Assembly (NCBI GenBank): GCA_902728285.1
Contig: CACVBU010000362.1
Span: 1,162,361-1,226,360 of the forward strand
Reading direction: 5' to 3'
Source: Clytia hemisphaerica
Lineage: Eukaryota > Cnidaria > Hydrozoa > Leptothecata > Clytiidae
Length of the DNA: 64,000 bases
Both the position numbers and the translations under genes were made by a program. Position 1 is the first letter of the stretch. Every line of letters starts with the position of its first letter. Below are positions 8,749 through 36,937 of the stretch, piece by piece. The notes under the pieces are model-generated. The model was not told the DNA's origin. It searched no databases and saw only the letters and a list, made by a program, of their open reading frames with translations.

Positions 8749-11408
8749 ATGGTTGATATCGAGCTGAAGTACGAAGGTCTTTCGAGAATATGCAGACCAC
8801 AGCAAGTATCTGTGCAACGGTTGGCTGTGATGTTTAAAGTAAGTTGACTTATGCTATGCATGGCCTTGTATTGTTTGAAGTTCCTATTCAAAACGGACTT
8901 GAAAATTTGAGTTTTACAGAAGAAATACAGTTCGTTCAATGATCTGATATCTAATTAATGTGCGAGAATTATATCTCAAGACGTGATAAGTTATGTTTAA
9001 TTTAGAAGTTGTTTCGGGAAGAATAACGTTTTACATTTTGTTTCACTTCAGCTCGTCCCGGCCACCATATACGTAAGAGAAGAAAATGGTCTATCAGAAT
9101 TTCCTAATAATGGAATTTTCGATTGCTTCGCAAATGCTCAGCCTCAAAATCCAAATGCTCAACGAAAAATTTATCTGGTTGAAGGAGAACGAGAACAAGA
9201 AAATTCTAATGTAGTATCATCAACCACTGGCCCGTCGGCAGCAGTTCCAGGCAATAGTTTTGCGTCGAACGGTGCATTTAGAAGATTATCGGCGACAAGG
9301 TAAGCAGTCTTCTGAAAGGTTGATGGGGTACAATATTTCAATGAAAATCTTTTCATTCGATAGATATACATTAATAAAAAGAAAACACAACATGTTTTTT
9401 GTTATAGTTCCTATCAAGCTTCTCCGGATAGTGTTTTTTTACTTGGGATTCTTGGTGAGTCTTTTCAAAAAATGTCGCCATGAAATGACTACAAAATAAC
9501 TTAAACTAAGCTGGCATTAAACTTTCATCAGTATTATTTCCTGGTTGATATTTTATATTTTTCTATTTGTTTAGGAGAAGATCGTTACCACAACAACAAG
9601 ATCCACCGACCTATTCATTAAAAGTTATTTTGGCAGATCTAGATGGCAAAAAGATTGGTAAGACTGCAAATTTTCTTTGCGTTCTTATTTGTTACGGCTT
9701 TTCTTACAACCAGATTCCCTTTCTAAAAGTCATTTGTAAATCCGTAAGTTTGTTGTTCACTTCCAGGGAAGTTTTTTACCAGCGAAAGGTGGTAACTTCC
9801 CTGGGAAATTATATGAATTATCATTGTCTAAGGATTACAGATTCCCTGATAAAGTTTCTGTATATGTAAAGAATTCTTACACTATCGATTGAATATCGAT
9901 ATCGATTTGGAAGTTTTTCTATTAAAAACACCTTTTTTGCAAAATGTATGGTTCTTGTCTTAAAAAACCTTGATTGCGATTTGATACGAATAAAATCTTT
10001 TGATATCTATCATTTTTCGATTTTAGGAATTCACAGGAGGATGCAATTCTTTAATATTGACGAAGGTAGCGCTAACGTGACAGATATCACCGCAAAATGC
10101 AGAGATGGGTTTGGAAACGAAAATGTACTCCTCGTACAAGCTAATGGGTTAAGAATCGAAGACAATGTTGTAACACAAAGTGAGTATATACTTAAAATGG
10201 ATTTATTGCTGGATGACTAAGTTAAAGCAACGGTAAATAAGTACTTTTTACTAATGAATACAAAATGTAAGTATCAAATTGTTCATGATCAAACATTTAT
10301 GTTGAAAACAAGTTTTATAAAATAAACATTTTTCTATTGAAGCATTGGCATTTTGGAAAAGTTCCGCACGAAAAGTCTATGCGGTGGACAAATCTTTCAT
10401 TCAAGGAGTAACCCAGCAAATCGACAATGCACCAAGACTTGGTAAGTATAGTTGTTTTCTAAAGAAAAACACTTTTAGGAAACGAGGGGCTCAGAATGCG
10501 TAAAAACTAAGAAACTTCATCAGAATGAGACATTTTTCAATTCGGTTTTTTAAGAACCTTTCATTAAAAATTTTTTTTTCTTTGCATGAAAATAAATTTA
10601 TATACAAGTACATAAGACGTTTCTTTTTGAAAATAAACACTATAGGCCCTTTTTTTCTTTAAGAATAGTGCACTTTGAAGGATGAGGCTCAAATATTCTT
10701 AACATTCTTACTATTTTAGACTAGACTGTATTACAGGCATTAGAAATCTCATGTTGGCTTTTAAATGAACAATTGGAGCTAAAACTACTCCTGTCTCAAA
10801 GTTTAAATTAAAGTCTAACAAAGGAAGCAGTTTTTTAAATGACTGTATTATCAAATTCTTTGAAACTGGTCCTAGAGAGTATTCTTAGGTTATTATTATG
10901 ATTTTCCAATTTTCACCCTGACATTCGTAAAAAAATATTCTCGTAGAAAGAAAAAGAAAGAAACATGTTTAGAAACATTTAACATTTAAGGCTCAAAAGG
11001 CCTATTTCTCATGAAACATTGAGGCTGCTTGGTAAAACTAGTTTCTTAAAAAAACGTGTATAGGCATTTTTATTTTTTAATCATTACAGACATGATCATC
11101 GAAAAATTGGGACGATTAGAGTCGAAAGTTGAAAGATCGGTCGCTGTATCATGTCCAACATCGGAAGATGTCCAATCTCTCAAAAGTGTGATCCGATTAG
11201 CAGAATTGTCAAGAATTGTCCAAGACACATACAGTTGCTTGATTTGTCTAGATTTGATGACCTCACCCGTTGTTTTTGCAACTTGTTGTGTAAATCATGT
11301 AACGATCATTGGATCCCCAATACACGCCCTCATTGCCGTGCTCAAGACACGAGACTTGTTGAAACCAGTTGCTTTAACGATATTTTGGCGTTTTTCCGTG
11401 AAGAGTGA
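8749..11408 (+). CDS. Module A UBL-like/RING protein, six exons, one frameshift
   Basis: Six exons with consistent GT-AG phases can be traced: 8749-8838, 9052-9299, 9575-9657, 10027-10179, 10343-10441 and 11090-11408. The product is about 300 aa. An N-terminal block (QQVSVQRLAVMFK, then EFPNNGIFDCF) is followed by a Ser-rich linker. Next is a possible ubiquitin-like segment (SLKVILADLDGKKIG, then VTDITAKCRDGFG and LRIEDN), then FWKSSARKVYAVD, a helical segment and a RING (CLICLDLMTSPVV). The RING frame breaks near 11285-11292; the next frame supplies CKSCNDHW and PHCRAQ to the TGA at 11408. If functional it would be a ubiquitin E3 ligase. It is convergent with the integrase remnant at 13764-14074. 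The frameshift could be decay or a sequencing error. Confidence 0.7.
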
Positions 11409-12010
11409 TTACAGATCGGAATTTGTATGACTATTTTTTGTGTCAGTTTCTTTTGTTACAGCAAGAACGAACCTTAAACTTCAAGTGAAATTTTTCACCG
11501 TTTTATTTAATTCCTTGACTAAATTCACAATCGGAATACTCAGTTTATGTTTTAAGGGTCTTAAATATAAGTAAAGGTTCCTTAAACTTGTCTTTTAAAG
11601 ATTTCGCCTTCAAAAGATAATGAATCAAATTCTTTCGAAAATCCTTTAATTTCAATCTTGACGATATCAGCCGAATGATTTGAATTTTTCGCCGTTATTC
11701 ATAAGATTAATTTCAAAAGAACGCTTAATCTTAGCCAAAACCTAAGAACAAGCCAAGCCTCATCTCAGTTCAGAAATTGCCAAGAAATAACAGCCGATTG
11801 AAGACTCTGAATCTAAATTCCTTTTAGCGTACACACTTTATTTTTTGTACAAGTTTTTTTAGAATGAGTAAATTTTGGCGTTACTTTAAGATTTCTGCAC
11901 TCATTATATTCTTTCGTTTCGTCAGGCGTCAAAATGAAACAAAATATAAGCAACTTAAAAGCTGTAGGACCTCACATTTTTTCAATATCTCGTAAAGTAA
12001 AAGCTTGTCA

Positions 12011-12642
12011 GCAGTAGCATGGTGACAGGGGGCAGTTCCCCCCCCCCCCAAGAAAAGGTTTTTTTGGGAGGCGCCAAAAAGAAATTTTTGCGCCCTTTTA
12101 CTTTAATGATTACTTTGATTTTAGCGCCCCTTTCGTTTTGAGCACCCTTTCGTTTATTTCCAGTATTCATGTACGTTATTTCAAAATTTTTAGCTCGCTT
12201 CGATATTTTCACTTAAATTTTCGGAAGAAAACATTTTTCTCCCCAATAGGAAACTAATGTTCTATTATAACATTCCGTAACATTTCTTCGAAAGTATTTG
12301 AGGGAAAGTAGACCTAGCGCTTTCAATGCATTTACACCACTATTGACTAGTGCACTAATAGTAGAAATTTTTGTGATCGCTTCGCTCGCATTTCAATCGT
12401 TTTAGCTGACTTTACGCAATGTATCTCGAGAAAACAATGTCGTAAATTTTTCTTGCTTGCTTCGCTTGCATTTTCTCATGTTTAAAAAAAGACCAACACC
12501 GGAAAAAAGCTCAAATTTTTGTATTCGGATCCTTCCAAGGAGGCTGACAAAAAGGGGGCGTTTGAATAAACTTACTGGGGGTGCCAAAAGCCAAAATTCT
12601 ACCTTTGCCTCCCCAGCTTTGACATAGCCACCACACTACTGC
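12011..12642. mobile_element. Non-autonomous inverted-repeat element
   Basis: The left end GCAGTAGCATGGTGACA is mirrored by TGACATAGCCACCACACTAC at the right, ending GC at 12642. The interior has a C-run and the phrase CGCTTCGCTCGCATTTC, but no believable gene. Confidence 0.5.
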
Positions 12643-13763: not shown

Positions 13764-14074
13764 TTACTCTGACAATTCGCTCGTAAGAAAAATAAAATGT
13801 AAAATAGCTTCCTGAAATGATTGACCATTGTTTCTCAAAATGTTATTGAAAATGTCTTGCAATGAAAATCTTTGAGAAAATCTTCTTAAACGCTCGTTGT
13901 AAAGATGTAAGTTGTCAGCAATGGGGTCAATTCCAAATTTTGGAACTTCAGTTAGTGCTCCACCATACAAATATACATATAAATCTCGAGCTTCTGGCGA
14001 CTCTGGAATTTCGTTTTCTGCGATCCTAACAAGCCTGTTCGTTCTCTGCTTTACGTTGATAGGGACACCCCTAC
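13764..14074 (-). pseudogene. Module A integrase, last exon only
   Basis: After an acceptor (TTTTAG, exon starting 14074 in phase 1) the frame reads RGVPINVKQRTNRL, PEARDLYVYLYGG, FSLQDIFNNILRN and SFQEAILHFIFLTSELSE, then a stop. It aligns with the last exon of the intact integrase C (31296-31612) and of B (17434-17753), notably the DIF/AIF and FQEAI blocks. The upstream exons with the catalytic D-D-E residues are absent up to 17 kb, so the gene is 5' truncated. It is convergent with the module A RING gene. Confidence 0.65.
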
Positions 14075-14079
14075 CTAAA

Positions 14080-15750
14080 ATAGATTTTTAAAAAATCTTT
14101 AATTTTGAGTATCTCAAAGGGCTGGTTTTGGGTTTATTTCAAGTGAGTTTGAAGTGAAATCAGGGAGAGTATAAAATTCATATTATTCGCGACGCGACGT
14201 AAATGTCTCATAAACCTTGATAAAATTTTTTTTAAATTGCTACTACTTGCAAAAGCCAGGGCGTTCAGGGGCGTATGTAGGATTTTGAGGATGCCCTGCA
14301 AAAAAGATACAGCTATATACAGTGATTCAGCTATATATAGTATCTAAGGAGGGTCCACCATGGTTGGGCCCGACGGGACAGAAAATTTTTGAATTTCGAC
14401 CCTCTAGATTGGCTAAAACAGCCACCTTTTTATGCCCAATGTATCATGAACCAGAGATAAAAAATTAAAATTCATTTCATTTAAACACAAAATGAAGCTG
14501 GTAAACCTAAGATAGTTTTTTGGGTTAAAGAGTTTTAAAAACCAAAAAAGAGTGGCCTCTAAAATATGGAAAAAATGAAGGAAAGAGAAAGGAGGTGTAA
14601 AACATTGGCAATTCATTATATCAATGGCAAAAATCATAACTATCATGAATTTTTTTAAGAACTTTTTGAACTTTACACAAAAAAGTGAAAAATGATAGCA
14701 AAATAATACAATAGCACACAAAAGATTATAAATTATACAAAAATCTTTATCTGATCGTGATAATAGCATTTACAAGAATAATAATATTTACCAAACTGTC
14801 TATAATTTTTTAATATATAATTTTTGATTCTTATTATGTCAAATTTATTTATCTTATTGCTGACTTAATAATTTCAAGCAGATTAATAATAATAGCCTTT
14901 TGCCATTTCAAATGAAAATTTAGAGAAAAAGAGCAAAACTATTTTATTCAGACTGCTCAAGAAAAGAGTATTTCATTAGAAAATTGATTAATGTGATGCA
15001 TTAAAGTATGGAAAATTAGAATTTGTACTGAAGCTGAAATTTCTATAGTTGGTTCGTCTTGAAATTAGTCTAGCCCCATTCTGGTGTCTCGTTTGGAACT
15101 GTTTGCCAAATAAAGCAGGGAATCCTGTACCAGGGGTAAAAAGCCCCCGATCCGAATTGAAAACAAACCATATGTCATCAGAACAAAAACTCATCTATTC
15201 ATTATGTACATAATGCAGCATGGTTATGTTTGGTATCAAAATTCAGTTGTTGTGTTATAAATTTTATACTTTATATATACATTATGCATCCAAATTCATT
15301 TGCATTGGCAATAACATGTCAGGGATGATTTACATATGACAAATATTGATATCCAGTTTACAGGAAAAATTTTGAATCCAAAAACTTCCAAGAAACTAAA
15401 TGTTAGGTACACATCATCATTTGATGGTTCCACTCATCTTATTAGCAGACTTTGTCAGTGTTTACAAAGATTTCGTACCAACCACGTGAAGGTGCAAAAT
15501 AATCCATTGATCTAGGGGCTACTGGACAGTATGATGGCAACTAACCTGAAAGTATATAATGAAGAGAGAATTAGGATCTTTGCAAGCTACACCTACATTA
15601 ACAAACACAATACAACAAAATTTAAATCAAACGACAACTGTACAACCAATGAAATTAATCTTATATAATAACCGGCTGATTGTGGGTAACCGCCAACTGC
15701 AATGCTTCATGAGTCTATCTACTAAACTTCTTGTATGGGTTTCTTTGGTT
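14080..15750. other. No supported gene
   Basis: AT-rich sequence. The ORFs at 14413-14769 and 14988-15194 (both minus) are open, but I recognise neither. The second (LFTPGTGFPALFGKQFQ, NYRNFSFSTNSNFPYF) has fairly normal composition and could be a decayed terminal exon. Confidence 0.3.
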
Positions 15751-15934: not shown

Positions 15935-17015
15935 CAGTACTTGACTGGCAGGTGCTGGCCCGCAAACTAAACATAGTCAAATACAATCTGTTTGTGTACC
16001 TCAAAATAGTGTGCGAAAAACCCACCCAGCTCTTTCTCTCCCCAGAAAAATTTTTTAACCGGCCAAAACATATTAAAAACATTAGGGTGTCAAGGTCCTC
16101 AGAATCACAAAATTTTCAATGTTATTTTTTTTCTCTTATTTCAAAATAAAACCACAATAGGTTGGTTGTCCCTTTGCCTCTTAAATTGCCGCAAATTCAT
16201 CTCCTGTCATCAACCTTTTCTTATAGCCAGAGTGATTGGCCAAACAAACAGTAGCTACGTACCCCGATTGATCAAATCTCTTATAAATATTTATGATTAG
16301 CCACTCACTCACCAGTCACTCACCACATACAACAAGTGGTTTTGTTGATTACCAAAAATTATGACAGGTCATAGTAGGCCATAAGGCAGATAAGTGGAGA
16401 AAGATGGGGAAGGGAAGCAGTTTTTCCTGCACTTACTGACTTACCTATATCAGATTATAATCGATAACATGCAGGCATGAAAAAAATACCACATACCTTA
16501 CAGATTTGACTTTCCTTGTTGCAATGGATTTGAGAAGATAACCATAAGAAGAAAAACAAACATTGAGATGACCTTGATGGCAGCCCTCAGATGACGAATT
16601 TGGAGAAGATCGAAAATGTGCAGGCTTCAAATTCTACAGAATTTGCGACAAAATAGATAAAATCAGGACTGTCTAATCTGTTTTTTCTTCTCCAAGCATC
16701 TAAAGCCATTTGACGAGTCTTGACTTTTAACGTTTTGACACTAACAGCCATCAAATCCCGGGCAAACCCTGCATTTTGACCAAGTCTAAAAAGGTTTGTA
16801 TACCGTTAAGTACGAGCTGACGGAATATGTCACTGAAGTTCTAACACAAATTTATCAAATTAAAATTTATTTAATATCTAATTATGTGGAAAGGTGATCT
16901 AACGGAACTGAAGGCAAATTTTTTCCCAAAAACGTTTTCTAAACACTATTTCGTTTCAAAATAGAAAGAAGCTTCTTGTGAATCCATCTCAGTTAAATTT
17001 AATTCTTTTTTATTC
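15935..17015. other. No supported gene
   Basis: I see no exon of the integrase upstream of 17021, although 5' exons with the first two catalytic aspartates would be expected here. Only short ORFs without recognisable domains are present. Confidence 0.35.
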
Positions 17016-17020
17016 TACAG

Positions 17021-17753
17021 AATTTGCCGATCGAGAGATTTTGGGTGGAAATCAACGCAAGAGTAAATTACCCATTAAAAGCTGCGCTTGTAATTCTTGA
17101 TAACGATAATGTGATTGATATGGACAATGAAGCTCACAAATACTGCGTTTCGAGTGTGACAGTATTAGTCGCAAAAATCGGCGTGACAAAGTGTGTCAAA
17201 TCTTGGAATGAGCATTACGTGCGAGGTAGGTTGTAGTTTTTCAAAATCAAAAACTAACAGAATATACTGGGTTGAAGGGTGCAACAGTTTAGAAAAAAGG
17301 CCACCGTCAGAATATAGTTAGAGACGTAAGAATGCCTTGATGTACCTGTTGTCTAATCGACTACAATAAAAAAGCTTTTTAGATTTATTCTTGTCTTGAG
17401 AGAAATAATAATTTAGCTCTTAAAATCTTTTAGGGAGAGGCAGACCTTCCCGAATAAAGAATGCAACAAATGCTCTGACCCCCTTGCAAATGGATGACCT
17501 TCCCGTTATGGAAACTGAAAAAGGTATCTACGAAGAAATCTATGATGGTAATATAAATCCCGAAAGTGTTTTTAGCTTAGACCCATTACAAGATTATCCT
17601 GATTTGATTGAGTTGCGAAAATCCGAATTTCTCCGAAACCATCACTTGGATGCAATCTTTGGAGAAGTGGCCAATGAAAACCCAAGACCTTTTCAAGAAG
17701 CAATCCTTTGGTATATTGACAAAACAACGGAGCTCTTTCAACAAACTCTTTGA
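17021..17753 (+). pseudogene. Module B integrase, last two exons (catalytic Glu present)
   Basis: Exon 17021-17225 (205 nt, exactly the length of its counterpart in C) encodes NLPIERFWVEINARVNYPLK, holding the catalytic Glu, then IDMDNEAHKYCVSS and SWNEHYV. Exon 17434-17753 encodes GRPSRIKNAT, HLDAIFGEVAN and PFQEAILWYIDKTTELFQ, then TGA. Splice phases match C (phase 1 junction). Both catalytic Asp exons are missing upstream, so it is a 5'-truncated integrase. It converges on the module B RING gene. Confidence 0.7.
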
Positions 17754-17759
17754 TTAACT

Positions 17760-18650
17760 AAAGACATGAATAGATTGAAGTTAGAAAACGACAGAACTTG
17801 TAACTTATTTGTTTTATTTGGTATACAAAACTAAAACCAGAAGTCTTTGATGTCAAAATCCTTTATCAGTTCCTCAGAGGCATATTTCGGTCGTAATGCT
17901 TGAATGTTTTCATTTTACAGGATCTCAAAAAATAAAAAAGTTATAATAGAAAATTTGAAAAAGTAATTATTCAGAAACACCAAAATATTTTTTTAATGAA
18001 TATGTATAGGAGGTGTAATCCAATTCAGGTTGAAAAGCCAGAGGAATATTAGAGAAGTTGCCTACTCTTAAAGCCATTGACCCTTTACATAGTTATAATG
18101 TATGTTGATTCAGCAAATTGAAATAAATAGATTCTTTTGTAATGAATAAAGAAAAATGTGGAGCAAGATTTTTTTATTTACAAATATGAAAGGACTCTTT
18201 TATTAAAATTTTGCTGACATCAGTTTCAGACGAGTCGGGTGTATATAACACCGTATAATTCCTTTAATAATGCGTACGTCAAGATTTATTTTATAGTCGG
18301 GTTTCCCGATAGGAAAATGATGGAATCTTGGGTTACACAATTTTTGTAAAATATTTTCAAAGCACAGTCAAAGTAGTAAAAAATATAAGCTATAAATTTT
18401 CTAATTTTCTTTACAGTAAAGTCTAAATAACAATTTGTGGTTTCAAGCTCCAAAAAATACGAACAGAGGCTCATTTGAGCATTTTGGAATATTTTTGAGA
18501 TTTTGAAGGGATCACGAGATTTTTCTCCGCCAATTTACAAAGGAAGTAAAGAAGAAGTGCGACGAACATTTTGTTAATTTACTTTCACTTTTTTCGAAAA
18601 AATATAAAAATACTTTCTAAAAACATAAGATATTCGTGTTCTTGATTTGT
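17760..18650. other. Spacer between convergent module B genes
   Basis: No gene seen. The stretch separates the 3' ends of integrase B and RING B and probably holds both polyadenylation regions; AATAAA is present at 18122 and 18144. Confidence 0.35.
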
Positions 18651-18651
18651 C

Positions 18652-21080
18652 TCAGCTTTCGTTTGCGATTAGGGCTGCCATGATCGGAAAAATTGCATCA
18701 AATGTGTGATTTGGGAATGTGGATAGATCTGGACTTCGACAATTTGGGCATGAAGGAGTGGCACCCAATCTTCCAATGCACTCTTTACATGTTATCAATT
18801 GTTTACAGCAATTCGAGTAAAGTAACGGTGGTGTTACTATCGGATCACGAAAGCCATAGTCCAAAAACTTGTTCCTTTTAATCATTGGAACTCTTACCAA
18901 ATTGTTTCGAGGAAAATAGGAATTCCTGGAAGAGTATAGTTTATTATAAATGAACTATGGTATCTAATCTAACATCATTGAATCAGGACACTTATAACGA
19001 TATAAAACTCAAACTAACCAATTTTTGGGGGGATGGATGGAGGACTTGAGCTTTCTTCTTTTTGTTCTTCAGTTGCTGCAAAGACTTTTCGGGCCGGCTT
19101 TTTCCAAAAATATAATTCTAAAACACAGAAAAGAAAAATTTTAAATATTAATGCACGTTTTTTTATAAGGAACACGTTTAAAAGGAACTTGAGGCTGAAA
19201 ATGGTCCAAAAAATAAGAAAATGTTAAGGAACTGCCCAAGTTCAGAATAAGAAATCAAGTTAAGGAACAGTTGGGTAAAACTTGAACTTTCACACTTTTC
19301 TAATAACCTAAACAAAAAGATGATAAAATGTTGCTGAAAACGACATTCAATGTGTCAAAAAGAAAAATTATATTTATACAGAAGTAAGGAGCTCGATTAA
19401 GGAACTTTGAGGCTGTAATTCTCTTGAAAAATAAGGAACTCCAGGCTCAGAGCTAAGTTAAGGTATCCTCATAAAAAAAACGTGCATTTTGAAAAAAAAG
19501 TACCTCGTGCTTCTCTCGACTCTCATTAGTAAGAGCAAATTTATTAAAAAAGGCCTTTGTGTACGAGAAAAATATTTTCCCAATCAGCTGATATTTCTCG
19601 TAAATTTCGTTAATTATTCCAGACTAGACAAACAAAGTTTCAACTGTCGATTGATATCCAAAGCCTTTTTTGCATGTACGTAAATGTAGGTTTTTTAATT
19701 ATTAGAAATATCTACTTTATAAAAAATGCGAAATCGTACCTCTTGTCCCCTCAGAATCTAAAATCTCCTTTCCAGAGGAACTAAACAGGACAAGTGATTG
19801 ATTGCCAAATTCTACTCTCGCTTTCCTTGTTATGCTATCCACGTTACAATTATCTTCACCGATTGTAATATACTTCTCTTTCAGAAACTCTAAAAATAAT
19901 AATAACACATTTTAGCTAAATTGACAAGAGGTCAAACCCTCTCTATTAAATACAACGAAAATTATATTCACAGTTCAAGATTTCATTTTATTAGGCAATT
20001 TAGTTCCTTGCTATCTTAGTCTCGTGAGGGAAATTAGAAATTACCAAAAAAACTCACCAAAATCTCTCTCTCTTTTTCGCAAGAGTGACTTTCAATGAAT
20101 GAGTCAGCTTCGAAGCATTTGGTCGTTTTCTGGACAGCTTGCTGAAGAAAAATAAATTTGTTTTCTCGTTACAAACAGCTAAATCAACTATGAAAAAGTA
20201 AAAGATAATCAGCTACTTTCGTTTAAAATCTAATCTTAACTTGGACCCATACTGCCCCCCCCCCCACAAAAAACTGTCCATAAGTTCTAGTAGTTCAGCT
20301 ACAAAAAAATACTTCAGGGATACATTATGTACAGCCTAATCTAATTCATCTTTTACTAGAGCTTAGTGTTATGAAAAATAATGTGAAAGCCTCGAACAAA
20401 TGGTTATTGCGGTAAGAGGGCACGAGAAATGATCTTACTTTTGAAGTGTGGTTGATGACGTTTTTTTAAACCTAGTCAGTAAATCAGACAGTCCTGGTGT
20501 TTCTTCAGCGTTGTTTGGATTATGGCTGCCAGTACCTTCTGCGTTTTGACCTGGGTTGGCTGAGTCACTGGGATCACCTCTGACTATGAAGTTTGCACCA
20601 CATAGAGCATTTTCAAGGATCGGAAACTTGCCGTCCTCCGGGAATTCTGATTGGGGCGATTGGGCATCCTCCCAATCCTCGGTAATGAACAATCCAACTG
20701 CGTTCAACTAAAATGAACAAGGAGAATGAATTAGCCTTCAACCAACTTCCTTGCTTCATTTTTATTTATAATTCGATAATTCTGACAGAAATCCTTGAAC
20801 AGAAATGAGTCCATGGTAAAAAATATTTGAATTAAAAAAGAATGAATTAAAAGTTGGTAGAGATCGGCCTGATAAATACGAAAATTGTGTAAACAGATAG
20901 TTAACAAGGAAGAAAACAAAGCAAACTTTCAACCGTAACCATTATTTAAAGATTTAAAAGCCTAATCATTACCTTGAATATTGTTGCAAGTCTTGCTGGT
21001 GTTACTTGCGCTCGTCGTAATGTAATACGCAAGTTTGATGCTTGATTAGAGCGAAAAGTGAACGATGGCTCATAATCCAT
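18652..21080 (-). pseudogene. Module B UBL-like/RING gene, decayed
   Basis: Minus-strand exons, in order: 21080-20973 (ATG, then LRRAQVTPARLATIFK); 20707-20439 (LFITEDWEDA, EFPEDGKFPILENA, Ser/Asn-rich linker); 20141-20058 (SRKRPNASKLTHSLKVTLAK); about 19897-19740 (VDSITRKARVEFGNQSLVLF, EILDSEGTRG); about 19104-19005 (FWKKPARKVFAATEE); and the final exon from about 18950. The last exon keeps CCKQLITCKECIGRLG and PSCPNCRS but lacks the coiled coil and the first CxxC of the RING. The (GA)n run in exon 3 makes its length incompatible with the next phase. Same architecture as A and C, but probably non-functional. Confidence 0.65.
19151..19487. mobile_element. MITE in the last intron of RING B
   Basis: It begins TGCACGTTTTTTTATAAGGA and ends CATAAAAAAAACGTGCA, which are inverted copies. 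The interior repeats AAGGAAC and GAGGCTG. It is a variant of the TATAAGAAC family with AAGGAAC in place of AAGAAC. Confidence 0.6.
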
Positions 21081-25535: not shown

Positions 25536-25536
25536 A

Positions 25537-25899
25537 TTTTACACGTTTTTTTTTATTAGAACACTTATAATTCGGCTGAGTCTGGATGGTACTAGATGTG
25601 CTTATTTTTTAGCAGTTTCCAGCCTAAAATGTTCTTAAATGCATTCCTAATTTTTCAGACTACTCTAAATTGACAATATCATCCAAAATAACGAGCACTT
25701 AGAATTGGTAAAATTTGGACAATATTTGAATCCCTAAGTTCGGTTAAAACTGCTTGAAAAGAGGAGAACAATTGTAGTTTCTTGTCATTCTTTTCCAAAC
25801 TGAGGCTGCGCATGTTTTGACGATGTTCTTAATAATTTTCGACAAATTTCAGCCTAAATGTTCTTATAAACTGGGTTTTTATAAAAAAAACGTGTAACA
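25537..25899. mobile_element. MITE of the TATAAGAAC family
   Basis: It starts TTACACGTTTTTTTTATTAG and ends TATAAAAAAAACGTGTAA, inverted copies. Several AAGAAC/GTTCTTA words lie inside. It abuts the outer end of the palindrome. Confidence 0.65.
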
Positions 25900-26517
25900 G
25901 ATTTCAAATGACCTAACTCGTTGAAATGACAGAATACTACTATTAAAAACAAAAGAATGAATTTTTGCATCGTTTGGAAATTTTTCGAGACAACAGCACA
26001 ATTACGTACGTCGTGCTATCATTCCGACAAAGAGGATGTTTTACCCAATAACAGGTTGCTTTATTCATACAATACGGAAAATATTTTCGATTATTTTATC
26101 TTAGACAACAAAGAGCGTATGACGTACGAAATATAAATAAATATAAATATTGGGTTATTTTTGCACGACAAAGAGAGCATATTTAAAAATTCTACAGACA
26201 CAGACAGCGAAAAGCACGTGACATGCGAAATATTTTGGGTGTTGTGCACGCGACCGATCAACAATAGCACCATGTATACGCAAAAATTCCTTTCAGTTTC
26301 AACATCTGATTGGTTGATTGGTTGACACCTATTCTTTCAATGACTGTGAATAACAATGGTTATAATTCACTTCTTTGTTTTCTTATAAGAAAGAGCCATT
26401 CACTACGATTCACGTAACAATGTATTGAACTAACAGTGAATTTCAACCATAAAATTAATTAATGTTATTTTCGTTACGAACAACGAAGAACGCACACCAC
26501 ACGAGAGACGGGCAAAG

Positions 26518-29500
26518 ATGAAAACTCATAACTTTAGAAGAGAAGGCTCTCCACCTATTTCTTTAAGAGAAGCACAGATTTGCACGTCCAATCTATCAAG
26601 ACACTTCAAAGTAAGTTTGGTACTAAATGTTTTCCTAGTATACGATGGGCGAAACTTCGTTTTGATTCTTTCAAATTTCACTCGTGACAGATTTGATCAA
26701 AATGAGTTTTTTATCCGGCGACAACACAAGAAACTTGATTTGATAAATTCAAAATTGAAATGTATAACTTATGAACTTTTTCTTGGTAAAATGTTAGCTT
26801 AATAAATTCAAAATTGTCGAAGATTCTTGTCGACATTTCCCGAAATCATTACAAATAAAAAAATCTAAAATAATTTTTTATTCATTTTACACCAGGTTGA
26901 CGAAACAACTATGTATTTAAAAGAGTGTTATGGCGATCGTGTGGAATTTCCGAAGGACGATGGATCATTTGACCTTTCTCGGCACACGGATCAAACAGAC
27001 TTCGAAGTAGTAGGAATGATTTTATCCGCCATCGCCGATGTCTCGTCCACCACATTTTCAACTCCTGTGACTCTTCGAAGTCAAAGTGCTCCAGCTGCTA
27101 CCGCTTCTTCTAATTCAAACCAGCTACCTTCAGCCTCCAATTCAAAGAAGACCGCGCTTGCTTCAGTGAAGATAATCAGAGCAGATTTGAACTCCCAAGG
27201 GAAACCTTCTAATTTTCACTCACACCAACAAAAGACGATCGTCAGTATCTACAAGGACGACGAAGCCAATGTCAACCACATCATGAACCGAGTCCGACTT
27301 GATATGCGTGATTCCACACTTCAACTTGCCGATCCGAATGGTATAATCTATCACGACCAAGAGGGCACTAGAGGTTTGTTTATTTCAGTCGTTTTAAGAT
27401 TTTTTTAAAGGGCTCTGACCAGTGAATTTTTCATATTTTTAAGATGTTTTATGTTCTTCTTTAGCTTGTTCTTATAAAGAAAACGTATGTACATTTCTGG
27501 AAACTGAATTAAATATCATCATATTTCGATTTCATTCACCATAAAAATATGCGTGCGCATTTTCTACGACAATACATAACTTCGTCTTTATCTCAAAACG
27601 AACTTCAATTTGGCACGTGATACACATTTTTGGACCTACCCGTTCGTCTGTTACAAGCTCTTCTAAGGATCGGCTCATTATATTTTTTTACCACTGATGG
27701 AAAATAGCAATGCCTTACAAGTGGCAGATTCCAATTTTCGAAGAAAAAATAATTTGGACTAGGTGCAAAATTGCTTCATTAGTTTTTCCTAATTTTTGGC
27801 AGAAAGATGTGGCTGAATTGATTTTTCTCGAAAAAAATTTTTTGTCCAAAAATGCGGATTTTCCTTTTTTGAAGAAATTCCATTTTACCATTTTCCTTTT
27901 AGCTGCTTTTCTTGTGATCTCATTAGTTTTTTCTGATTTTTGCATAAACTGCCAAAATGTCAGGAAGCCCGATTTTTGAGAAAATGTGGGCCAAAAACTG
28001 CCTGAGAATAGGGTTTTTTTTGGACTTTGTGTGAAATTGCTTCATTAGTTTCTTCTATTTTTTGCACAAAGATAGAGGGCAAGGTTCTCTAAAATATGGC
28101 TCAAGTCGCTTTTTACCGTAAAATTCAGATTTTCTTATATGGGGAAATACCCTTCAGTAAATTTTAGGGGTTAGGGGGAATGAGTATTTCTCGCGATTGG
28201 CTTGGTATATTTTTCTGATTTTTAGTTTGACTATTGTTGCCATGCTTTCTATTTTTTTATTAATTCAGCGTTTTTTTATAAGAAAATCCAAAATTTTTGA
28301 AGCCTTCAGATGTTTTTAACTTTTTTGAGTTTTTAGGCTAAAAATATTCTTAACATTAACTTATTTTGGCCACTTTTTGAGTAATTTTGTCCATTTTCCT
28401 AAGAAATTGGGAGTTTTGATTGAGAGTCTGGGAAACTTTAAAATATTCTTAACTTGTTCTTAACCCTATTCAACCTAGGCTTTTAGGGGCGGTTCAGAAC
28501 TAGGGGGGGGCTTTTCCTGTACCACCCCTTAACTTTTGATCTATTTGGTCTTTTTGGATGAAATTTGGCACACAAGATCTTTGTCACGTAAGGTAACTTT
28601 TGACAAAAAAAATTTTTGATGACGTCACTCATCATGCCCAAGGTGAGCAAATATAAATAGCTATTGTATTCTAACAAAAGCTTTAGAAAAAAGTTGTCTG
28701 AGTTTAAAATGCTTATTTTATCCTAAATATTCAATAAATTACGGTTTAAACGATATATTAGACATTAAAAATAAATTTGTATTGGAAAAGTGTCAATTTT
28801 TGTGACACCTTACTGTCAGAAATGTCATCATACTCAAGGTGTGAAAATTTTTAGGTGTCAAATTTTTTTTTATTTTGAAGCTAAATAAAAGTTAGGAATT
28901 TACAGAAAATTTCAAGGCAAAAGCTCTATTATTTCAGGAGCTATTACCAATAGTTTGACGTCCGAACAGAAAGAGCCCCCCCCCCTAGGCCGAATAGGGT
29001 TAACATTTTGGCCATCAAAGCCTTATGTTATATAGCTTGTTCTTGAAAAAAACGTACAAACATAACAACGCATTTTTTGATGAATCAAGAAGCCATCTAG
29101 CCATCCCTGTCTCAATGACCTGGAGTGAATTATTTAGCCAAATTGGTTAAAATGAAGGTCGTTTAAATGTATAAATAAAAAATCTTCTAATTTCCAATTA
29201 TTCTATATTCTTATTGACATTTTTTTCTTTTTTTTGTAGGTTTGGCATTTTGGCGTGTGGGGAGTAGGAAATACTATGCAGTTCCAAACAATCAATTCGA
29301 AAAAATGAAAACCCCAGAAGCAAGTGGCAGTGGAAAAAAACCGGCAGCAAAGAGATCTCGGGTATCAGAGATTGCACCAAATTACATCGAGGAATCCATC
29401 GAAAACCTAATTGAAGATTTTGCTGAGGTGAAAGAGGAGCTTGGAAAATTCAAAGAGCTGGCATTTCGTCATCGATTTAGCTTATCCTTTATTCAAGCAT

Positions 29501-29811
29501 TAGAAGAGACTTTCACTTGCTCAATATGCCGAGTTGTTCCACCAAGTCCCCCCGTGATTGCCTGCTCCGCATGCTCGACACTCGTTGGTTGCGAAACCTG
29601 TGTAAACGGTTGGTATCGCGACGCGTTCTCTCGGAAGTGCCCAAAATGTAACGCCGAACGAGGTGTAACAAAAACCTTCATATTAAAAGGCTTCGATGAC
29701 CTCATTAGTCAAATCAACATAATGTTGAAGAGCAACAAGGTTCAAGATGACGATAGTGTGTATGCTGATACCAGACCGGTTTCTCCCAACATGGAAAATC
29801 TTGACGAATAA
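26518..29811 (+). CDS. Module C UBL-like/RING protein, 380 aa, intact
   Basis: Exons 26518-26610, 26896-27373 and 29240-29811 join in frame with GT-AG introns into 380 codons plus TAA. Residues 17-31 carry ISLREAQ...LSRHFK, then VEFPKDDGSFDLSRHTD, as in A and B. A Ser/Ala-rich linker leads to VKIIRADLNSQGK and VNHIMNRVRLDMRDSTLQL, a segment that may be ubiquitin-like. Then come FWRVGSRKYYAV (about 194-205), a basic patch KKPAAKRSR, an acidic coiled-coil-like helix, and a RING at 284-327 with Cys pairs CSIC, CSAC, CETC and CPKC (all-Cys, with no His in the usual place). It ends KGFDDLISQINIML plus an acidic tail. It predicts a nuclear E3 ligase encoded by the element. Exon 2 equals three exons of gene A, so introns differ between copies. 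Confidence 0.8.
27374..29239. repeat. Nested repeats filling intron 2 of RING C
   Basis: 27634-28200 is a partial GGACCTACC-family repeat (GGACCTACCCGTTCGTCTGT, then tandem CTGATTTTT units). 28262-29058 is a MITE with ends GCGTTTTTTTATAAGAAA and TGTTCTTGAAAAAAACGT. Inside it, 28462-29003 is a second MITE with ends TTAACCCTATTCAACCTAGG-like and CCTAGGCCGAATAGGGTTAA. The gene stays open despite about 1.9 kb of insertions. Confidence 0.6.
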
Positions 29812-29819
29812 AGCAAATA

Positions 29820-31290
29820 GTTTTATTTTTTTCAACGACACGATATATTTTGTTAAACAGTAAAGGATATTTTTGTTATAAAAGACTTATAAAATCTTTA
29901 GATTTCGAAATTTTCTGCGTCCTATTGATTGACATTAACGAGAAGGGCTTTCCAAGATCCTTTATTTTATTCTTTTCCCCATGTGAACCATTTTTCAAAA
30001 GCTTAATTTTAAGTGAAAATCCACTTTTTGAATGCGTGAATCAGGGCTATTTTGTGCGTGAATACGTGAATTTTCCCTTCTTCCACCGATCATGTGCAGT
30101 TTTGATTTTTCCATGTTTCCCCAATTTTTCCGAAACATTTTCCGATTTTTTGAAAAAGGGTTTTGCGTGAAAATCGAGAAAAATTTACGTGAATGAATGA
30201 ATTTCGAAAAAAAATTGTGTGATTGGTGTTGTCGTTTTCAAGATTCTTTATCTACCAAATTTCAGCGAATTTCCAAGGTTTTTTGGCTTTAAATCAGTTC
30301 TTTTTCCAGGGGGTAAAATGCGTTACAGGGTGTGCCGCTGGTCAGAGTATCATTTTTACATCCACGTGTCCCAGATAAGGTCACAATAACACCAAAATCT
30401 GAAAAACAGTCCCTCGTAACTAGTTCCCTTTATGGAAAATTTGGAGAAAGGTAGAAACTTTTGGGATAATTTTGACGTATAGTCTATTTGTAGAGCCTCA
30501 GATAAACACCCCTGTCCGTCAACAAGAGTAGTACCCCCGGGTATTTTTCCAGGTTTTCCCCAATAATCAAATTTATTTAAATGTAGGCCAGCGGGGGGGG
30601 GGTACTTGGGCAAAACAGGGTTCGGGGACGTTCCTCTGGTCAGTCCTCCTTTCACCTCCGTTAGTCTCCCTGCTAGGGTCACAAAAACCTATAAAAGTAA
30701 CTGGTTTTCAAAAATCATGTTTTTCCAAGGTTTTTCCAAAACATTTTAAGTTTCAAGGTTCTGAAGGCCCCGCAGAAATCCTATATGGATTTTTCCAAGG
30801 GATTGAATGCTGTTCTGTAATAGATGAAAGACTGATTTTTAAAGCACTCTGCTCCAGGGGATATGATTTTCTTTCTTCAAAGGGGGTTGGGAAAATTTTG
30901 CCAAGGGTACAATTATGGAGTCTATTACTAAAAAGCAAAGAAATTGACTGCTATTAAGGATATATCTTTTAGCCGAGAATCTGTTCGGTAAATCTGAAGA
31001 AAATAAATGTTTCCTTAAAATTTGTACCAAAATTTCTTAGGGAGGGTTAGTTCATTAACTTTTCTACACGAGTATTACACGCGTTTTGATAAGAAAACGA
31101 GACTTAAATTTCGTGTTAAATTTAGCCAAAACATGAATTAAGAATACTCCTAGCCTCAGATTGTGCCATACTCCTGATACTCTATTTCTGTTCTGTTGTG
31201 GGGCCTATTGTAATATAGTGATGTAAGAATCGGATAAAGATTCTTTCTAAATGCCTTGTAATGATAATTTGTTCTTCAAAAACAGTTTAT
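29820..31290. other. Spacer between convergent module C genes
   Basis: No gene found. 30360-30680 is richer in G+C with runs of G and may be a small repeat. AAACGTGTAA-type MITE ends occur near 31077. Both genes' polyadenylation regions should lie at the two edges (AATAAA at 29809 directly at the RING stop). Confidence 0.35.
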
Positions 31291-31295
31291 CGATA

Positions 31296-33675
31296 TTATA
31301 TCTGACTGGAATACGCTATTGTCAAATTTTGAAAATAACAAATTGCTCTTTCGAAAAATATACCCCTATTTGACATGATTGCTGAAAATTTACTTTTATC
31401 GTCGTTGAACATTTCATAAAATTTATGTTCCCTTTGCCTTTTGAGTTCTGCATGGTTTTCCAAAGGGTCTGAACCATAACCTTGAGGTCTGGTTAATTGT
31501 CCTCCCATTTGTTCGTAGTGATTTACAGCATCTCCTGTTGTTAATACTCTTTCTGCCGGCACGATACCTATCTGGTCATTTTGGTGTTGCAATCGGTTTG
31601 GGATACCTTTTCCTAAAATTAAATAAATAAATATTAAGCCTTTCCCAAGACCTATCAAATTTATGATGTCATCTCAAAAATTTAAACTTAGAAAGACTTT
31701 TGGCCGATTACACTTTTTTTAAATAAGAAAAATTTTATAAGAACAATGAGGCTCAAAATTGCCAAAAAATGAAAATAATCTAAGAACAATGCTGATCCTG
31801 AAATTACTCCTCCCTTTTCGTATCAATAACAAAGAATAAAGCGACTTATCAATCATTTTACCAACAAATCTTTCTAACTTGAAATGTGCTCTACAATAGC
31901 ACTTTAAATCCCACAAAATATTCATTACTCAACAAAAGGAAACATTTTAATAAAGAGGTGATCTACGAAATGTACTTACTCACAATTCTGTGGTGGTTCC
32001 AACTTTCGACAAATATCTTTAGCCCATAATATGAAACCTTACATGTTACCCAAGATACGCAAAATTGTGTTACTTCATTCGACATATCAATCTTTTCGGC
32101 TGCAACAAGGTTGCTTAAAATTTTCTTGATGGGGAAATTGATTCGTACGTTTACCTCGACCCAGATCCTTTCAATAATGTTATTCTGAAAAAATAGATTG
32201 TAATTTCAAAGAAAGTTCTTACGGAATTGCTCGCATATAATTGACTTCTGCTCATCCTCTAGCGAAAAAAGTTTCTTATATAGGAGATGTATATCTATAG
32301 AGGTTTGCAAATCAAACTAGCATAAATTGGGAAAGCGTAGTTAAGAGAGTCAAAAGTAAACAAAAATATTTAATATATTTCTTACATCCGTGGATTTTGA
32401 TTTATAAACAGGTCGTCTTTCAGTGTTCGTTCTGTATTCTTTTAAGTGCTCTTGTATGTGACAAATTAGATTGAATTCTTTCCCACCATCCACTCTGACT
32501 TGGTCCCACACGCCATATCTTTCTAAGCTTGGTCTATAAGTAAAAAACAAAAAGACAAAAAAATTAAAGCAAAATATGGAAAAAATACTGCCTGAGGATT
32601 TACCAAGCTGTACATTTATAATGTGTAAAACGTTCTTCTAAGTTCTCATATTATGCAAAGCCCTTTTTAAATTTCTTATTAATAAGAATTCCTCGAGAGA
32701 ATAATAAGAAAAGGTATCCATACTAAATTACCTATAAATTTCATCATATATTGTGATGTTGTTCTTTCTTGGCATAGTCGAAAAACCAATGATTTTCCCA
32801 GAAAAGCCGTCTCTTGAACATACATGAACTACACCAAACATACATAATTTCTCATTTTGATCATAGTGAATCTTATGACCAAAGTAGTCGGCTCTGTAAA
32901 CCTTCGGATTGAATGACCTTCTGGCTATGTTTCGTCTTCGCTCTTGAGCAGCAGGATTAATACTTTTCAAAATTTTACCCACTTTTTCCTCTCCAACACG
33001 AATTCCTTTGCTCCTTAGTGTCCCATGCAAAGTACGACGCCCATAGCTTTCACCAACCTAAGTAAAATTATTTTAAACTGTTTGTGATCGAAAAATTGAA
33101 CATTTGTGCATTTATTTAATTCAATATCCCAAGAATTACTTGTTCCTTTGTTCATCAGATAGATGAAGGTAAGTCCAGCCTCTTTCCCAGGGCCTGATTC
33201 TCACTTTTTCATAATTTTGATGGTCGTTTCGATTTTGTATGACAGCCCCGGGGGATAATCTTTACAACAGATACAACAACCTACCAACCTCAGGACCCTA
33301 GGAAACCCTTGTTTGTCTTATTATATTGGAATTGGAGATGAAAAGAAAAGCCTTTGAATCGACTCTTGTAGTACTAAGTGGGATTTGTTGGACTCCCAGA
33401 GGGATAGACAGGTAGATAATCAGATGGTGTGCCCGTGATTTGAATTTACTTACTTCTGAGACTGATACAGATATTTCTTTTCTCAGGTCATCCGCAGATA
33501 AAGTGCAATTTCTTCCCATATTATTTTCTTTACAAAACCTTCTAACACTCATTGCTGATAATCCTCTTTGAGCGGGAAAGTCTGATTTCAATTTGCAGCT
33601 TATTTCTTCGTACGTCATTCCATTCTGTATCAAAGATTTTACGGAAGACGGAGTTGTTACTCTCGCCACTTCCAT
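31296..33675 (-). CDS. Module C DDE integrase/transposase, 405 aa, intact
   Basis: Five minus-strand exons, 33675-33454, 33057-32732, 32533-32386, 32184-31980 and 31612-31296, splice in frame (1218 nt, 405 aa plus TAA). The N-terminus has a helix-turn-helix-like region (MTYEEISCKLKSDFPAQRG, MSVRRFCKEN), then YGRRTLHGTLRSKGIRVGEE, like the HTH before IS3-type integrase cores. The catalytic core has Asp140 (KIHYDQNEK), Asp198 (VRVDGGKEF) and Glu237 (NNIIERIWVEV), giving D-D-(38)-E. Conserved SRDGFSGKIIGF, FCVSWVTC and SWNHHRIV follow. The family is the rve-like integrase of animal transposons in which HYD replaces the usual WHID. It would cut and join the element's ends in the nucleus. It is convergent with the RING gene and holds all key residues. 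Confidence 0.85.
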
Positions 33676-33679
33676 TTCA

Positions 33680-34147
33680 GCTCTTAATGAAGTAAACGCG
33701 CGTGTAATCGAGACATTAAGAGAAAAATTAGACTAACAAAGAAAAGACTGAATAAAACTATTGTTTTATTTGTCTTCTTTGTAACTGGTTGTAAATCATT
33801 TTCAACTTTCGATTTTTTTATCCGAGACGTTTTTTTTACAAATTGGTTTGGTTTTGTCAATTTCAATTTTTCACGACACAATTTCAGTATTTGAAAATAT
33901 TATTTTCAATTTTCAATGCAAGAAGTTTATATTAGAAAATTAAAGATGATACTGGAAATTTCAGTTCATTTCTGGCAGAAATAAAAATAAAATTGAAACT
34001 TTCAATCAAAATTCAATTTTCAATTTTTTAACTCGAAAATTGAAAATTGAAAATTACCATCGAAATTCAATTTTTTGACCAGAAATGTCGTCAAAAATTG
34101 ATTGAACGGAACATGCCTGCATGATTCACGATCCGTGTATGAAAACG
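33680..34147. repeat. Right terminal repeat of module C
   Basis: Inverted counterpart of 24870-25180, with tandem TTGAAAATTGA/TCAATTTTC words that can form many small hairpins. The inner segment 33680-33890 recurs inverted at 21655-21850. The outer edge is placed near ATACACGG...GTCCATTC, just before coding sequence of integrase D. Confidence 0.65.
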
Positions 34148-34619
34148 TCCATTCAAAATTTTGATTGATTCAATAAACGAATTTGTACGTCAGGAAAGAA
34201 TAAATTTAGCGACTGAAGAAACTAAATTTGCCGTATCTTGGGTAACTTGTCGTGTATCAGAAATTGGTACGAATCTTTCTGTTCGAGCATGGAATCATCA
34301 CAGAGTTCCAGGCAAAGGCACCCCGATGGATTTTATGTCATTGAATAACAGAACTGTCCCAGTTCTAAATTTAATGACAAATTTGGAAGATGTACGACAT
34401 TACGAGACTGTAAATGGCGGTCATTTAACAATCTGGAATACCTTTGGAATCGATAGATTAGCAGAATCTTTGGACCTAAGTATGCACAGGGAGACTGAAA
34501 TTCTTAAAAAGTGTAGTTTTGAAGATATATTTTCTGAGGTGCAACATGGGAGAAATGACAACTTTCTCTATTGTATTCAACTCTTCATACACGTAACAAA
34601 TTCTTTATTAGTAGAATAA
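34147..34619 (+). pseudogene. Module D integrase, C-terminal half, intron lost
   Basis: The open frame SINEFVRQERINLATEETKF, FAVSWVTCRV, SVRAWNHHRVPGKGTPMDF, FEDIFSEVQHGRN continues to VTNSLLVE and TAA. It aligns with exons 4 and 5 of integrase C, but the intron between WNHHRV and GKGTP is absent. The 5' side, including all catalytic residues, is cut by the right repeat of module C. It converges on RING D. Confidence 0.65.
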
Positions 34620-34624
34620 AGTCT

Positions 34625-36390
34625 TAGCTTTTAGTGTTTATAGTTTTTATAGTTCTTACTTGAAAAAAATTTACACTTATGGAATAGTTACAAGTTTAGT
34701 AAGTTACACTTATATGCTGCCATGTCTATTGATTTTTCTATTAATCCGGCTTTTAGACACAGCGTCACAGGAGGAAAAATCAAATTCGGGGTCCCTGATT
34801 ACAAAATTCGAAGCATGCACTAAAAAATAACTCGTACATAGATGTAATGTACGCCAACACTATAGTGGTTTACCCCTCGCTTGAAAACTTGAATCTTGAT
34901 TGAATCCCTCGTTTGTTATTCTACGTTTTCCGAAGAAAGATATAAGATTCACTTCTGACCTTTGGCTTAAATTCATGGTCCCGGTAGCTACTTATAAAGA
35001 AGTTGTTGCTCATTATGCTTAGAAAGTTGTCGCATATTTTTCAGCATGTTCAAATTATGCTTAGCCATGTGATTACAATTTTTTTCCTCCAAAGCTTCAT
35101 TAATTTTGACTAATTTTTACTTAACGTGTTTTTTATAGGAAAATCTAGACAGAATCTTTGAGAAAATTCCAAAAAGCCAGTGTTTTTAGGGACATTATAG
35201 CGACCGCAAAAGTTTTTTATTCGAAAGTCCGGATCTTTTGATGCCAATAGGGGTGAGGGACAGTAAAAACATGCTGAAAACATTCCATACGATAGAATAT
35301 AAGTTGAGAAAAGTCCAGAAAACCAAGGGCAAGGGTACGGGATGTGAAAGCGGTAAGAGTACCTTTTTCAGGCCCCAAAAATCTCTCTAAGGGTTACAAA
35401 AATCCCATCCATTCTCTGAAAGGGTCCCAAAATCAGCATAATCAAAATACACGCCTTTTCTTTATAAGAACATGAAATTTGGCCAGAAAACTAAAAAACA
35501 AATTGAGAACAAGCCGAGCCTCAGAATTTTCAGAGCAGATTTTAGAACAATCTATTTTTGTCCCTTTGTTACTGAAGAAATGCATTATTCCAAAATTTTT
35601 TCAAGTTTTGCCAATATGAATCGATCTTTTTAATTTTTCTTTCTTAAGGATGGAAGTTTTGATTCACGAATGATCAAGGTTACAAAGTAGCCAGAAATTT
35701 TAGAATTTAAGAATAGTTTAAGAACATTTGAGCCTGAAAATCGAAAATTTAAGAACAACCCTCAGCCAAAATTTACTGGTTCTTATAAAAATAAGCGTGT
35801 ACATGTTTTTTTATAAGCATACTTTTTTTTGGAAATAGGCTCGGTTAAGCTTGGGCAAAATTTGAAGCCAGGTTCAAATTATGCTTATATTATGCTTATC
35901 TTAAAATTCTGCTGATTAACAATTGAATTCCACCGAGTAAGCTGGTCGAAGAGAAAAGCCACGAATTCCTTCCCTTTTCCAATAACATCAAAGTACATCA
36001 AATCATCCCATTGAAATTGATAAAATATCCTTAAAAATGTTGAATGTAAAACAAAAAGATCCAGTCAGACAAACAATATGGAGGTTCGTGAATATGCTTG
36101 TGTTATGCTTAATTTTTGGCAAAATATAGGTCTCGTTGAAACATGTTGACAATATTTTTTGCAGATGAATTTTTTCACCGACGAATTTTCTACCGATAAG
36201 GTATTTATTCAGGCACCGAAGAGTACGGGAATGTGTATTCAGTTGTATTTCTGTTTAAGGAGGGAGATAATAGTCAAGGGGTCTTTTGAAAATAAAAACA
36301 AAAGAATACAGTTGCTACAACTTGCTATGTTGGCTTGTATAATAAAACAAAACAAAAGTTAGTTCAAAAGTCAATTGGTTGGTTGCTTAA
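34625..36390. repeat. Spacer with MITEs between module D genes
   Basis: 35452-35802 is a TATAAGAAC MITE (ends ATACACGCCTTTTCTTTATA and TTCTTATAAAAATAAGCGTG). Directly after it, at 35808, a TATAAGCATA variant begins. An earlier piece with CATTATGCTTAG words lies at 34985-35150. No gene is supported; the ORF at 36159-36362 is unconvincing. Confidence 0.5.
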
Positions 36391-36392
36391 TC

Positions 36393-36937
36393 CTAATCTT
36401 CAATTAATACAGCGTCTTCCCCTTCACTCTCCTCCTCACCAGAGTCATCGTCACTAGTTGAACCGTCGTCTTCCATAATTTTTATTTGTTGAATCAGCTC
36501 ACTGAAACCACGAATTTCCTCTGACTTTTTGTAACCACCTGTTGCTCGACATAAGAGGCATGTTTTCGAGAGGGTCCTTCCACCTCTGTAGTATCTGTGA
36601 ACGCATTTTGAGCACCCAAGGGGCCACCACAGCCAACGCAAGCACTCGCTGGTGCTCGCATTGGAAAACGGTGACAAATACTGCATTTGAATGCCTCTTC
36701 CAAGGCGCTTAAAAAAGCAACGGGAAATTTATGTTCAAAGGAGTCTTTGAACTTCCATAACCTGGGTTCTCATCTCTTTTACTTCCTTTGTTAGTTCTTC
36801 AAGTGGCGATTTTTGCTTTCCTTTATGCTCGGCGGATAGCTCACTTCTCGTCTCTGATGTTGAGCTTGAGGATCTTTGGAGTTCTTCCTCGTCAACTGCA
36901 AAGACTTTTCTGGCTCCGCATTTCCAATATGAGATCC
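36393..36937 (-). pseudogene. Module D RING gene, terminal exon, two frameshifts
   Basis: The minus strand, after a TTATCAG acceptor at 36938, reads GISYWKCGARKVFAVDEEEL, a Ser-rich segment and a Lys/Glu helix. It then shifts frame near 36750 to FKDSFEHKFPVAFLSALEEA and FKCSICHRFPMRAPASACVG, and shifts again near 36610 to GCSKCVHRYYRGG and KTCLLCRATGG. It ends GFSELIQQIKIMEDDG and an acidic tail. The order and the RING Cys pairs match gene C (284-327 there). Upstream exons were not found. The two frameshifts mark it as dead. Confidence 0.7.

Follow-up and report, generated by a model that had tools for sequence, protein, structure and literature searches.

IS3EU and GingerRoot are treated as one lineage by Kojima and Bao (2023, PMC10045372), and in the cited passages of that work the complete IS3EU families always have TA..TA termini and target site duplications (TSDs) that are usually 6 bp long. 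In fungi, TET+ IS3EU elements carry, according to the cited section of PMC12730594, an alpha-kinase gene opposite to the transposase and a 6-bp TSD; the words RING and ubiquitin are absent from that paper. The fungal 'Entons' and 'Intons', from En/Spm and IS3EU, encode five to six proteins as summarized in PMC3520738. As for RING domains, the RING of RAG1 is an E3 ligase according to the excerpted text of a 2015 paper (PMC4411706), and RINGs in retrotransposons were reported in 2013 (PMC3630058, abstracted passages). Here we describe a 64,000-nucleotide stretch of the genome of the hydrozoan Clytia hemisphaerica (assembly GCA_902728285.1, contig CACVBU010000362.1, positions 1,162,361 to 1,226,360; hereafter the window, on contig C256 in our numbering), in which four related DNA transposons are piled up, each pairing an integrase gene with a facing RING gene. 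They are best read as two-gene cut-and-paste transposons with a RING accessory gene, IS3EU/GingerRoot-like, and by analogy the accessory protein may act through an E3 mechanism. All genome-wide counts given below come from this one 417-Mb genome.

The four pairs (A to D) lie tail to tail, with the coordinates and motifs correctly reported in the initial annotation, and exon-level tblastn within the window links them to one another. The integrase remnants A, B, C and D are homologous in the C-terminal domain (E 5e-7 to 2e-13) and in the exon bearing the catalytic E (E 1e-4 to 2e-15), RING C and RING D are homologous to each other (E 4e-10), and the RING exons of A and B are tied to the other pairs via sibling loci elsewhere in the genome, e.g., L027 and L030. 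The pairs are of unequal quality, element C being a complete insertion and A, B, and D decayed relatives.

Element C has a length of 9,230 bp (24894..34123) and contains the RING gene on the forward strand and the integrase gene on the reverse strand, tail to tail, between terminal inverted repeats (TIRs) that are bordered by an exact 6-bp TSD, ATTCAC, at 24888..24893 on the left and 34124..34129 on the right. The right copy of the TSD directly adjoins the terminus of element D, which places the insertion site six bases from that terminus. The left TIR (CGTGTGTGCATGTTTCG..., 24894..25179, forward strand) aligns with the right TIR (CATGCAGGCATGTTCCG... read inward, 33838..34123, reverse strand) over approximately 286 bp at approximately 92% similarity; a count of the alignment by eye gives 20 mismatches and 2 gaps. 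A terminus identical to that of the right TIR was found in L017 on contig C735, which is 98% identical to part of the integrase half of element C (32266-34124), ends at exactly the same terminus and has different flanks; a RING exon was not seen in the remainder of the 9.9-kb L017 stretch.

The RING gene of element C is predicted to consist of three exons, located at 26518..26610 (ending at the donor GTAAGT, with splicing deduced from the sequence), 26896..27373 (acceptor CAG, donor GT, and a region from 27127 that appears ubiquitin-like (UBL) judging from the structure model of the homologous L020 exon), and 29240..29811, the latter encoding the FWRVGSRK motif, a linker, the RING, and the stop. 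On the reverse strand, the integrase gene begins with an N-terminal exon that appears helix-turn-helix-like by eye (33450..33675, 3' boundary approximate; homologous exons in L018, L020, and L023), followed by the core exon with the first catalytic D (32732..33057; 90 genome matches), an exon with the second catalytic D in VRVDGGKEF (32386..32535, 5' boundary approximate), an exon with the catalytic E (NNIIERIWVEVN) and the WNHH motif (31975..32184, 3' boundary approximate; PF24764 rva_4, E 7.8e-7), and a C-terminal exon (31296..31612). The exons of both genes are open, those borders that were read have GT/AG splice sites, and all three catalytic residues (D, D, and E, assigned by eye) are present. 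The starts previously proposed for integrase C (33675) and RING C (26518) each coincide with the ATG that opens the predicted first exon.

Twenty stretches of approximately 10 kb were read for sibling elements; they surround the integrase matches in rows 2 to 20 of the 90-row list, plus one weak match close to the window. Exons of the RING gene occurred in 11 of these 20. In L020, which runs from TIR to TIR (121-9036) and is flanked by the TSD CCCATG, the 355-bp inverted repeats are 100% identical and the long exons of both genes are open; counting L020 itself, four loci share this RING exon at 100% identity. The TSD was GCTTAC in L021 and GAAAAC in L034, a B-type element that is 94-97% identical to element B of the window and has a 96-bp TIR of 89% similarity, while that of L031, CATCTT, is offset by 1 bp (one extra base). 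Both genes lie between one TIR pair in L020, L021, L031, L034, and element C of the window. Siblings on several contigs share the same terminal sequences and differ in their flanks. Judging from these identities, the elements appear to have been mobile recently with both genes aboard.

Within this genome, the two genes are neighbors far more often than expected, which answers part of the adjacency check proposed with the initial annotation. Merging 20, 23, and 37 rows from RING queries of three families gave 44 RING places, and queries with the integrase core, the rva exon, and the C-terminal exon gave 57 integrase loci (drawn from 44 core places in query lists of 90 and 53 rows, 40 of 44 rva-exon rows, and 18 places from 20 + 20 rows). 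An integrase exon was located within 10 kb of 22 of the 44 RING places, compared to 0.12 expected by chance for 57 loci in 417 Mb. Nineteen of these 22 pairs are convergent, two are head to head, and one is listed as tandem, namely that of element D in the window; the latter is convergent with its own integrase, seen by tblastn, which brings the convergent total to 20. Four of the unpaired RING places were inspected, and their RING identities mark them as copies of families that are paired elsewhere (C74, 95%, with a left TIR in L045; C482, 89%; C669, 73-94%; C265, 92%). Conversely, of 49 integrase core places, 18 lie no more than 10 kb from a RING place. None of 14 more distant core places, 41-51% identical to the L030 core, had a RING place within 20 kb (C404, where C404:21207 is L035, C251, C456, C504, C340, C864, C423, C741, C884, C335, C882, C558:609615, and two on C170), so that the RING gene may accompany only some of these integrases. 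Genome searches with PF00665 (rve; at least 150 matches among 150 scored of 912 candidates) and PF24764 (at least 150 matches among 150 scored of 596 candidates) were kept out of the linkage count.

The two genes have also diverged together under constraint. Between L020 and L023, the ratio of non-synonymous to synonymous differences per site (pN/pS) was 0.36 in the RING exon and 0.30 in the UBL exon, while two pieces of the integrase gave 0.13 and 0.27. In comparisons with element C of the window, the RING and UBL exons gave 0.48-0.52; alignments of the C-terminal half of L023 to element C and to L018 matched different parts and were left out. Across eight families, including the L032 RING fragment and the head-to-head family (L028/L046), the distance matrices of RING and integrase correlated with r 0.75, a value reached in 141 of 40,320 permutations. 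Divergence is greater in the RING domains than in the integrase cores (distances of 0.40-0.85 vs. 0.17-0.54). From this constraint and co-divergence it follows that the RING gene has long been kept and inherited together with the transposase; its linkage, its co-divergence, and pN/pS below 1 show that it belongs to the element by inheritance and under constraint, and was not picked up by chance.

The protein encoded by the second gene is laid out as a beta-grasp-like domain, an FW..(S/A)RK motif, a linker, and a RING. That the last of these is a RING, as annotated initially, is borne out by profile matches to BIRC3, XIAP, UHRF1, and MDM2 at E 1e-4 to 4e-4. Four Cys pairs were identified in element C, L020, L023, L030, L024/L034, and L046, and seven ligand Cys are invariant across the six sequences of alignment A3. 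The eight zinc ligands stand in RING order, and the RING model resembles the RINGs of TRIM37 and cIAP2 (best E 1.4e-3), the structure model of the RING exon being poor outside approximately residues 61-160; the linker ahead of the RING is helical by prediction, at low confidence. A ubiquitin-like (beta-grasp) fold, also anticipated in the initial annotation, is plausible for the upstream domain from the predicted structure of the homologous L020 exon, for which the nearest folds include PB1, CIDE-N, SUMO-like, and ubiquilin domains. Of the 38 matches that the UBL exon alignment gave in a PDB search, none was better than E 0.14.

Taken together, we consider it probable that the four pairs are copies of one old two-gene cut-and-paste lineage with a constrained RING gene, which likely serves an E3-type tuning of transposition. 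Two-gene composition, mobility, 6-bp staggered insertion, and long co-inheritance under constraint are observed. Copies of the lineage would have become nested in a transposon-rich stretch, an intact element consisting of a gene for a DDE integrase-type transposase and a facing UBL/RING gene between TIRs, and the transposase inserts the element by a 6-bp staggered cut, as the TSDs show. The RING protein would then most likely act in trans as an E3 ligase or E3 adaptor that tunes transposition, in analogy with the RING of RAG1. Its ubiquitylation targets might be the transposase, or chromatin or repair proteins at the element ends; joint inheritance of the two genes would make the transposase or the end complex the likeliest target. 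Several observations weigh against this explanation. Three of the four pairs in the window (A, B, and D) are dead, and 9 of the 20 sibling stretches have no RING exon, though two of them (L028 and L029) have one just outside. Within 10 kb of 22 RING places, half of the 44, there is no integrase exon, and one family (C472:2.55 Mb and C834; L028 with L046, L029 with L047) is head to head instead of convergent, its two copies being 93-96% alike and sharing that order. The orientation of the two genes is consequently not strictly fixed, and of the fixed convergent pairing claimed initially, the adjacency far above chance stands, while the 2 head-to-head and 22 unpaired places limit the rest. Additionally, saturation of synonymous sites (dS) leaves only pN/pS usable for the RING and UBL exons, and five of eight families have one zinc ligand out of eight shifted (CC, not CxxC), so that E2 binding may differ.

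This shifted ligand also lends some weight to a rival in which the transposon has the same two genes but its RING/UBL protein is no ligase and instead supports the transposase structurally or by binding DNA or the element ends, its RING and beta-grasp domains being used as assembly modules. PB1 and CIDE-N domains are assembly modules, and their presence among the nearest folds of the beta-grasp model, together with the tentatively helical linker before the RING, fits such a partner; the invariance of the seven ligand Cys and the best profile matches, all to RINGs of known E3 ligases, speak against it, and we regard it as a real but clearly less probable alternative. Still less probable, though bolder than targeting of the transposase or end complex, is counter-defence, in which the RING gene would remove host silencing proteins, or the transposases or RING proteins of rival elements, and let the copies spread. 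The families are divergent, the RING more so than the integrase core, as would be seen in an arms race, but a higher RING divergence equally fits relaxed constraint, and pN/pS is below 1 in the RING and UBL exons (0.30-0.52).

Explanations without a two-gene transposon fare worse. Four pairs within 28 kb, with introns and divergent sequences, could be imagined as a tandem cluster of domesticated, immobile host genes for a RING protein and an integrase. However, the TIRs and TSD of element C, the siblings with the same termini and different flanks on several contigs, and the broken state of three of the four window pairs are at odds with this; the RING gene is multicopy and lies inside elements in this genome. 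A host-gene cluster was thus rejected on the TIRs, TSDs, and dispersed siblings; for element C it is refuted, and overall we give it very little credence. Even more improbable is a chance neighborhood of unrelated RING genes and integrases in a transposon graveyard: the window is indeed a nest of repeats, with element C inserted exactly beside the end of D, but the 22 adjacent places and the enclosure of both genes within one TIR pair in five elements would hardly be met under it. Going further than the probable reading of one old two-gene lineage, it is conceivable, though we hold this only tentatively, that these elements belong to a widespread ancient transposon clade outside Chapaev/RAG1, with its own conserved UBL-RING ligase that degrades host silencers or controls the transposase, and a possible source of host RINGs. 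The one complete copy, with its insertion footprint, suggests that certain transposons bring along a protein-tagging helper of their own. If a RING gene is inherited separately but jointly with the transposase in a second cut-and-paste lineage, unrelated to the first, it would become testable whether DDE transposition is generally controlled through ubiquitylation, a question relevant to why RAG1 retained its RING; the recent copies L020 and L021, whose inverted repeats are complete, would permit a direct assay.

The remaining elements of the window are remnants. Element D (34130..36974) has a CATCCG-type terminus at 34130, with one mismatch compared to that of L020, fused to the integrase middle (34143-34619, forward strand), the 5' part of the integrase being lost; its RING exons (36396-36974, reverse strand) are broken by frame changes. 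Element B (16778..21637) is 94-98% identical to L024 and L034, and its leftward alignment with both ends at 16778. It retains only the 3' half of the integrase (3' exons 17003-17753, forward strand), RING exons at 18652-21143 (reverse strand) that lack approximately 230 bp, including the first RING Cys pair, at 18850, and the right terminus at 21637, with the left part missing. In pair A, the RING remnant (9001..11430, forward strand) comprises a UBL-like exon (10026-10181), an FWKSSARK exon within 10321-10503, and a frame-broken RING within 11050-11430 that is split across two frames, and the C-terminal exon (13764..14087, reverse strand) is the sole recognizable exon of the integrase. The right end of D and both ends of A were not found in the window. 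The terminal repeats described initially as shared are so in part: C-like repeats recur in the window, yet there are three terminus types, and neither the C-like repeat at 3095-3320 nor that at 23585-23871 is an end of element C. A palindromic repeat with C-like ends occupies 23582-25181, is broken at approximately 23872-24889 by an inverted-repeat stretch whose ends are CATCCG-like, and has element C beginning right beside that stretch. The termini of C and D are exactly one 6-bp target duplication apart (34124-34130), and the other side of C adjoins an element end of similar type; there may be a preference for insertion at the ends of related elements.

Elsewhere in the window, within 59172-62795, an open reading frame encodes a ubiquitin carboxyl-terminal hydrolase domain (PF00443, E 9e-12), and 1.7 kb downstream of it lies an N-terminal helicase domain of Helitron-like type (PF14214, E 3.2e-5, which does not reach the cut-off); this is possibly a Helitron carrying a deubiquitinase. 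A THAP domain (PF05485, E 1.1e-9) lies at 39715-40026, adjoining repeat arrays at 40186-41975.

Regarding classification, the transposase belongs to PF24764, with E 3.4e-18 in L020 in addition to the match in element C, and D, D, and E were recognized by eye in both; the N-terminal integrase exon of L020, upstream of the core, where IS3EU is characterized by the lack of an HHCC zinc motif, contained no Pfam family, and a PDB search with the integrase gave no match. No relative was found among the viral contigs and plasmids searched, and the sole match in a prokaryote genome, L048 (LWTN01000144.1, integrase core 56%), comes from a metagenome-assembled genome of a bacterial sponge symbiont; its 4.4 kb held no RING match better than E 0.28, and it is probably sponge host DNA. 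The 6-bp TSDs are exact in L020, L021, L034, and element C of the window, with the 1-bp offset in L031. Of the three terminus types, the CATCCG type is that of D, and the other two are those of C and of B; the sequences found are CATCCG..CGGATG, CGTGTG..CCTGCATG, and AATYGAAG..CTTCGATT, and none is TA..TA. IS481EU, with TSDs of approximately 4, 15, or 25 bp vs. 6 bp here, does not fit.

Among the papers listed in the literature searches, none was found to describe a RING or ubiquitin gene in IS3EU-like elements; a two-protein entry may already exist in Repbase. The initial proposal of a new transposon group holds insofar as this is a transposon group whose pairing recurs in dispersed, TIR-bounded copies with 6-bp TSDs, but 'new' was an overstatement given PF24764, the IS3EU/GingerRoot-like 6-bp TSDs, and the facing accessory gene that the cited section of PMC12730594 describes in fungal TET+ IS3EU. 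The elements share with IS3EU and GingerRoot, as far as the cited passages characterize these, an integrase-like DDE transposase (here PF24764), TIRs, and the 6-bp TSD, whereas the termini given there are TA..TA or occasionally TG..CA, in contrast to the three other types and the extra RING gene found here. Since they agree in the TSD and differ in the termini, we did not file them as IS3EU; on the terminus description they would be set apart as IS3EU/GingerRoot-like elements, not members. TET+ IS3EU and the 'Intons' are likewise IS3EU-type elements with accessory genes in the cited parts of PMC12730594 and PMC3520738, but TET+ IS3EU is fungal and its accessory genes encode a TET/JBP dioxygenase and an alpha-kinase, while the elements described here carry a RING. 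Retrotransposons with long terminal repeats and a RING finger (Isis-like Gag, Osvaldo, Pao) also place a RING inside a mobile element, but in the passages cited from PMC3630058 it resides in Gag or the polyprotein, without a separate gene, and the element is not a TIR transposon. Chapaev/RAG1 resembles our elements in having a transposon-encoded RING next to a DDE recombinase; there, according to the excerpted text of PMC4411706, the RING is fused inside a Transib/Chapaev-kind transposase, whereas in the C. hemisphaerica elements it is encoded by a separate gene on the opposite strand, together with a UBL-like domain.

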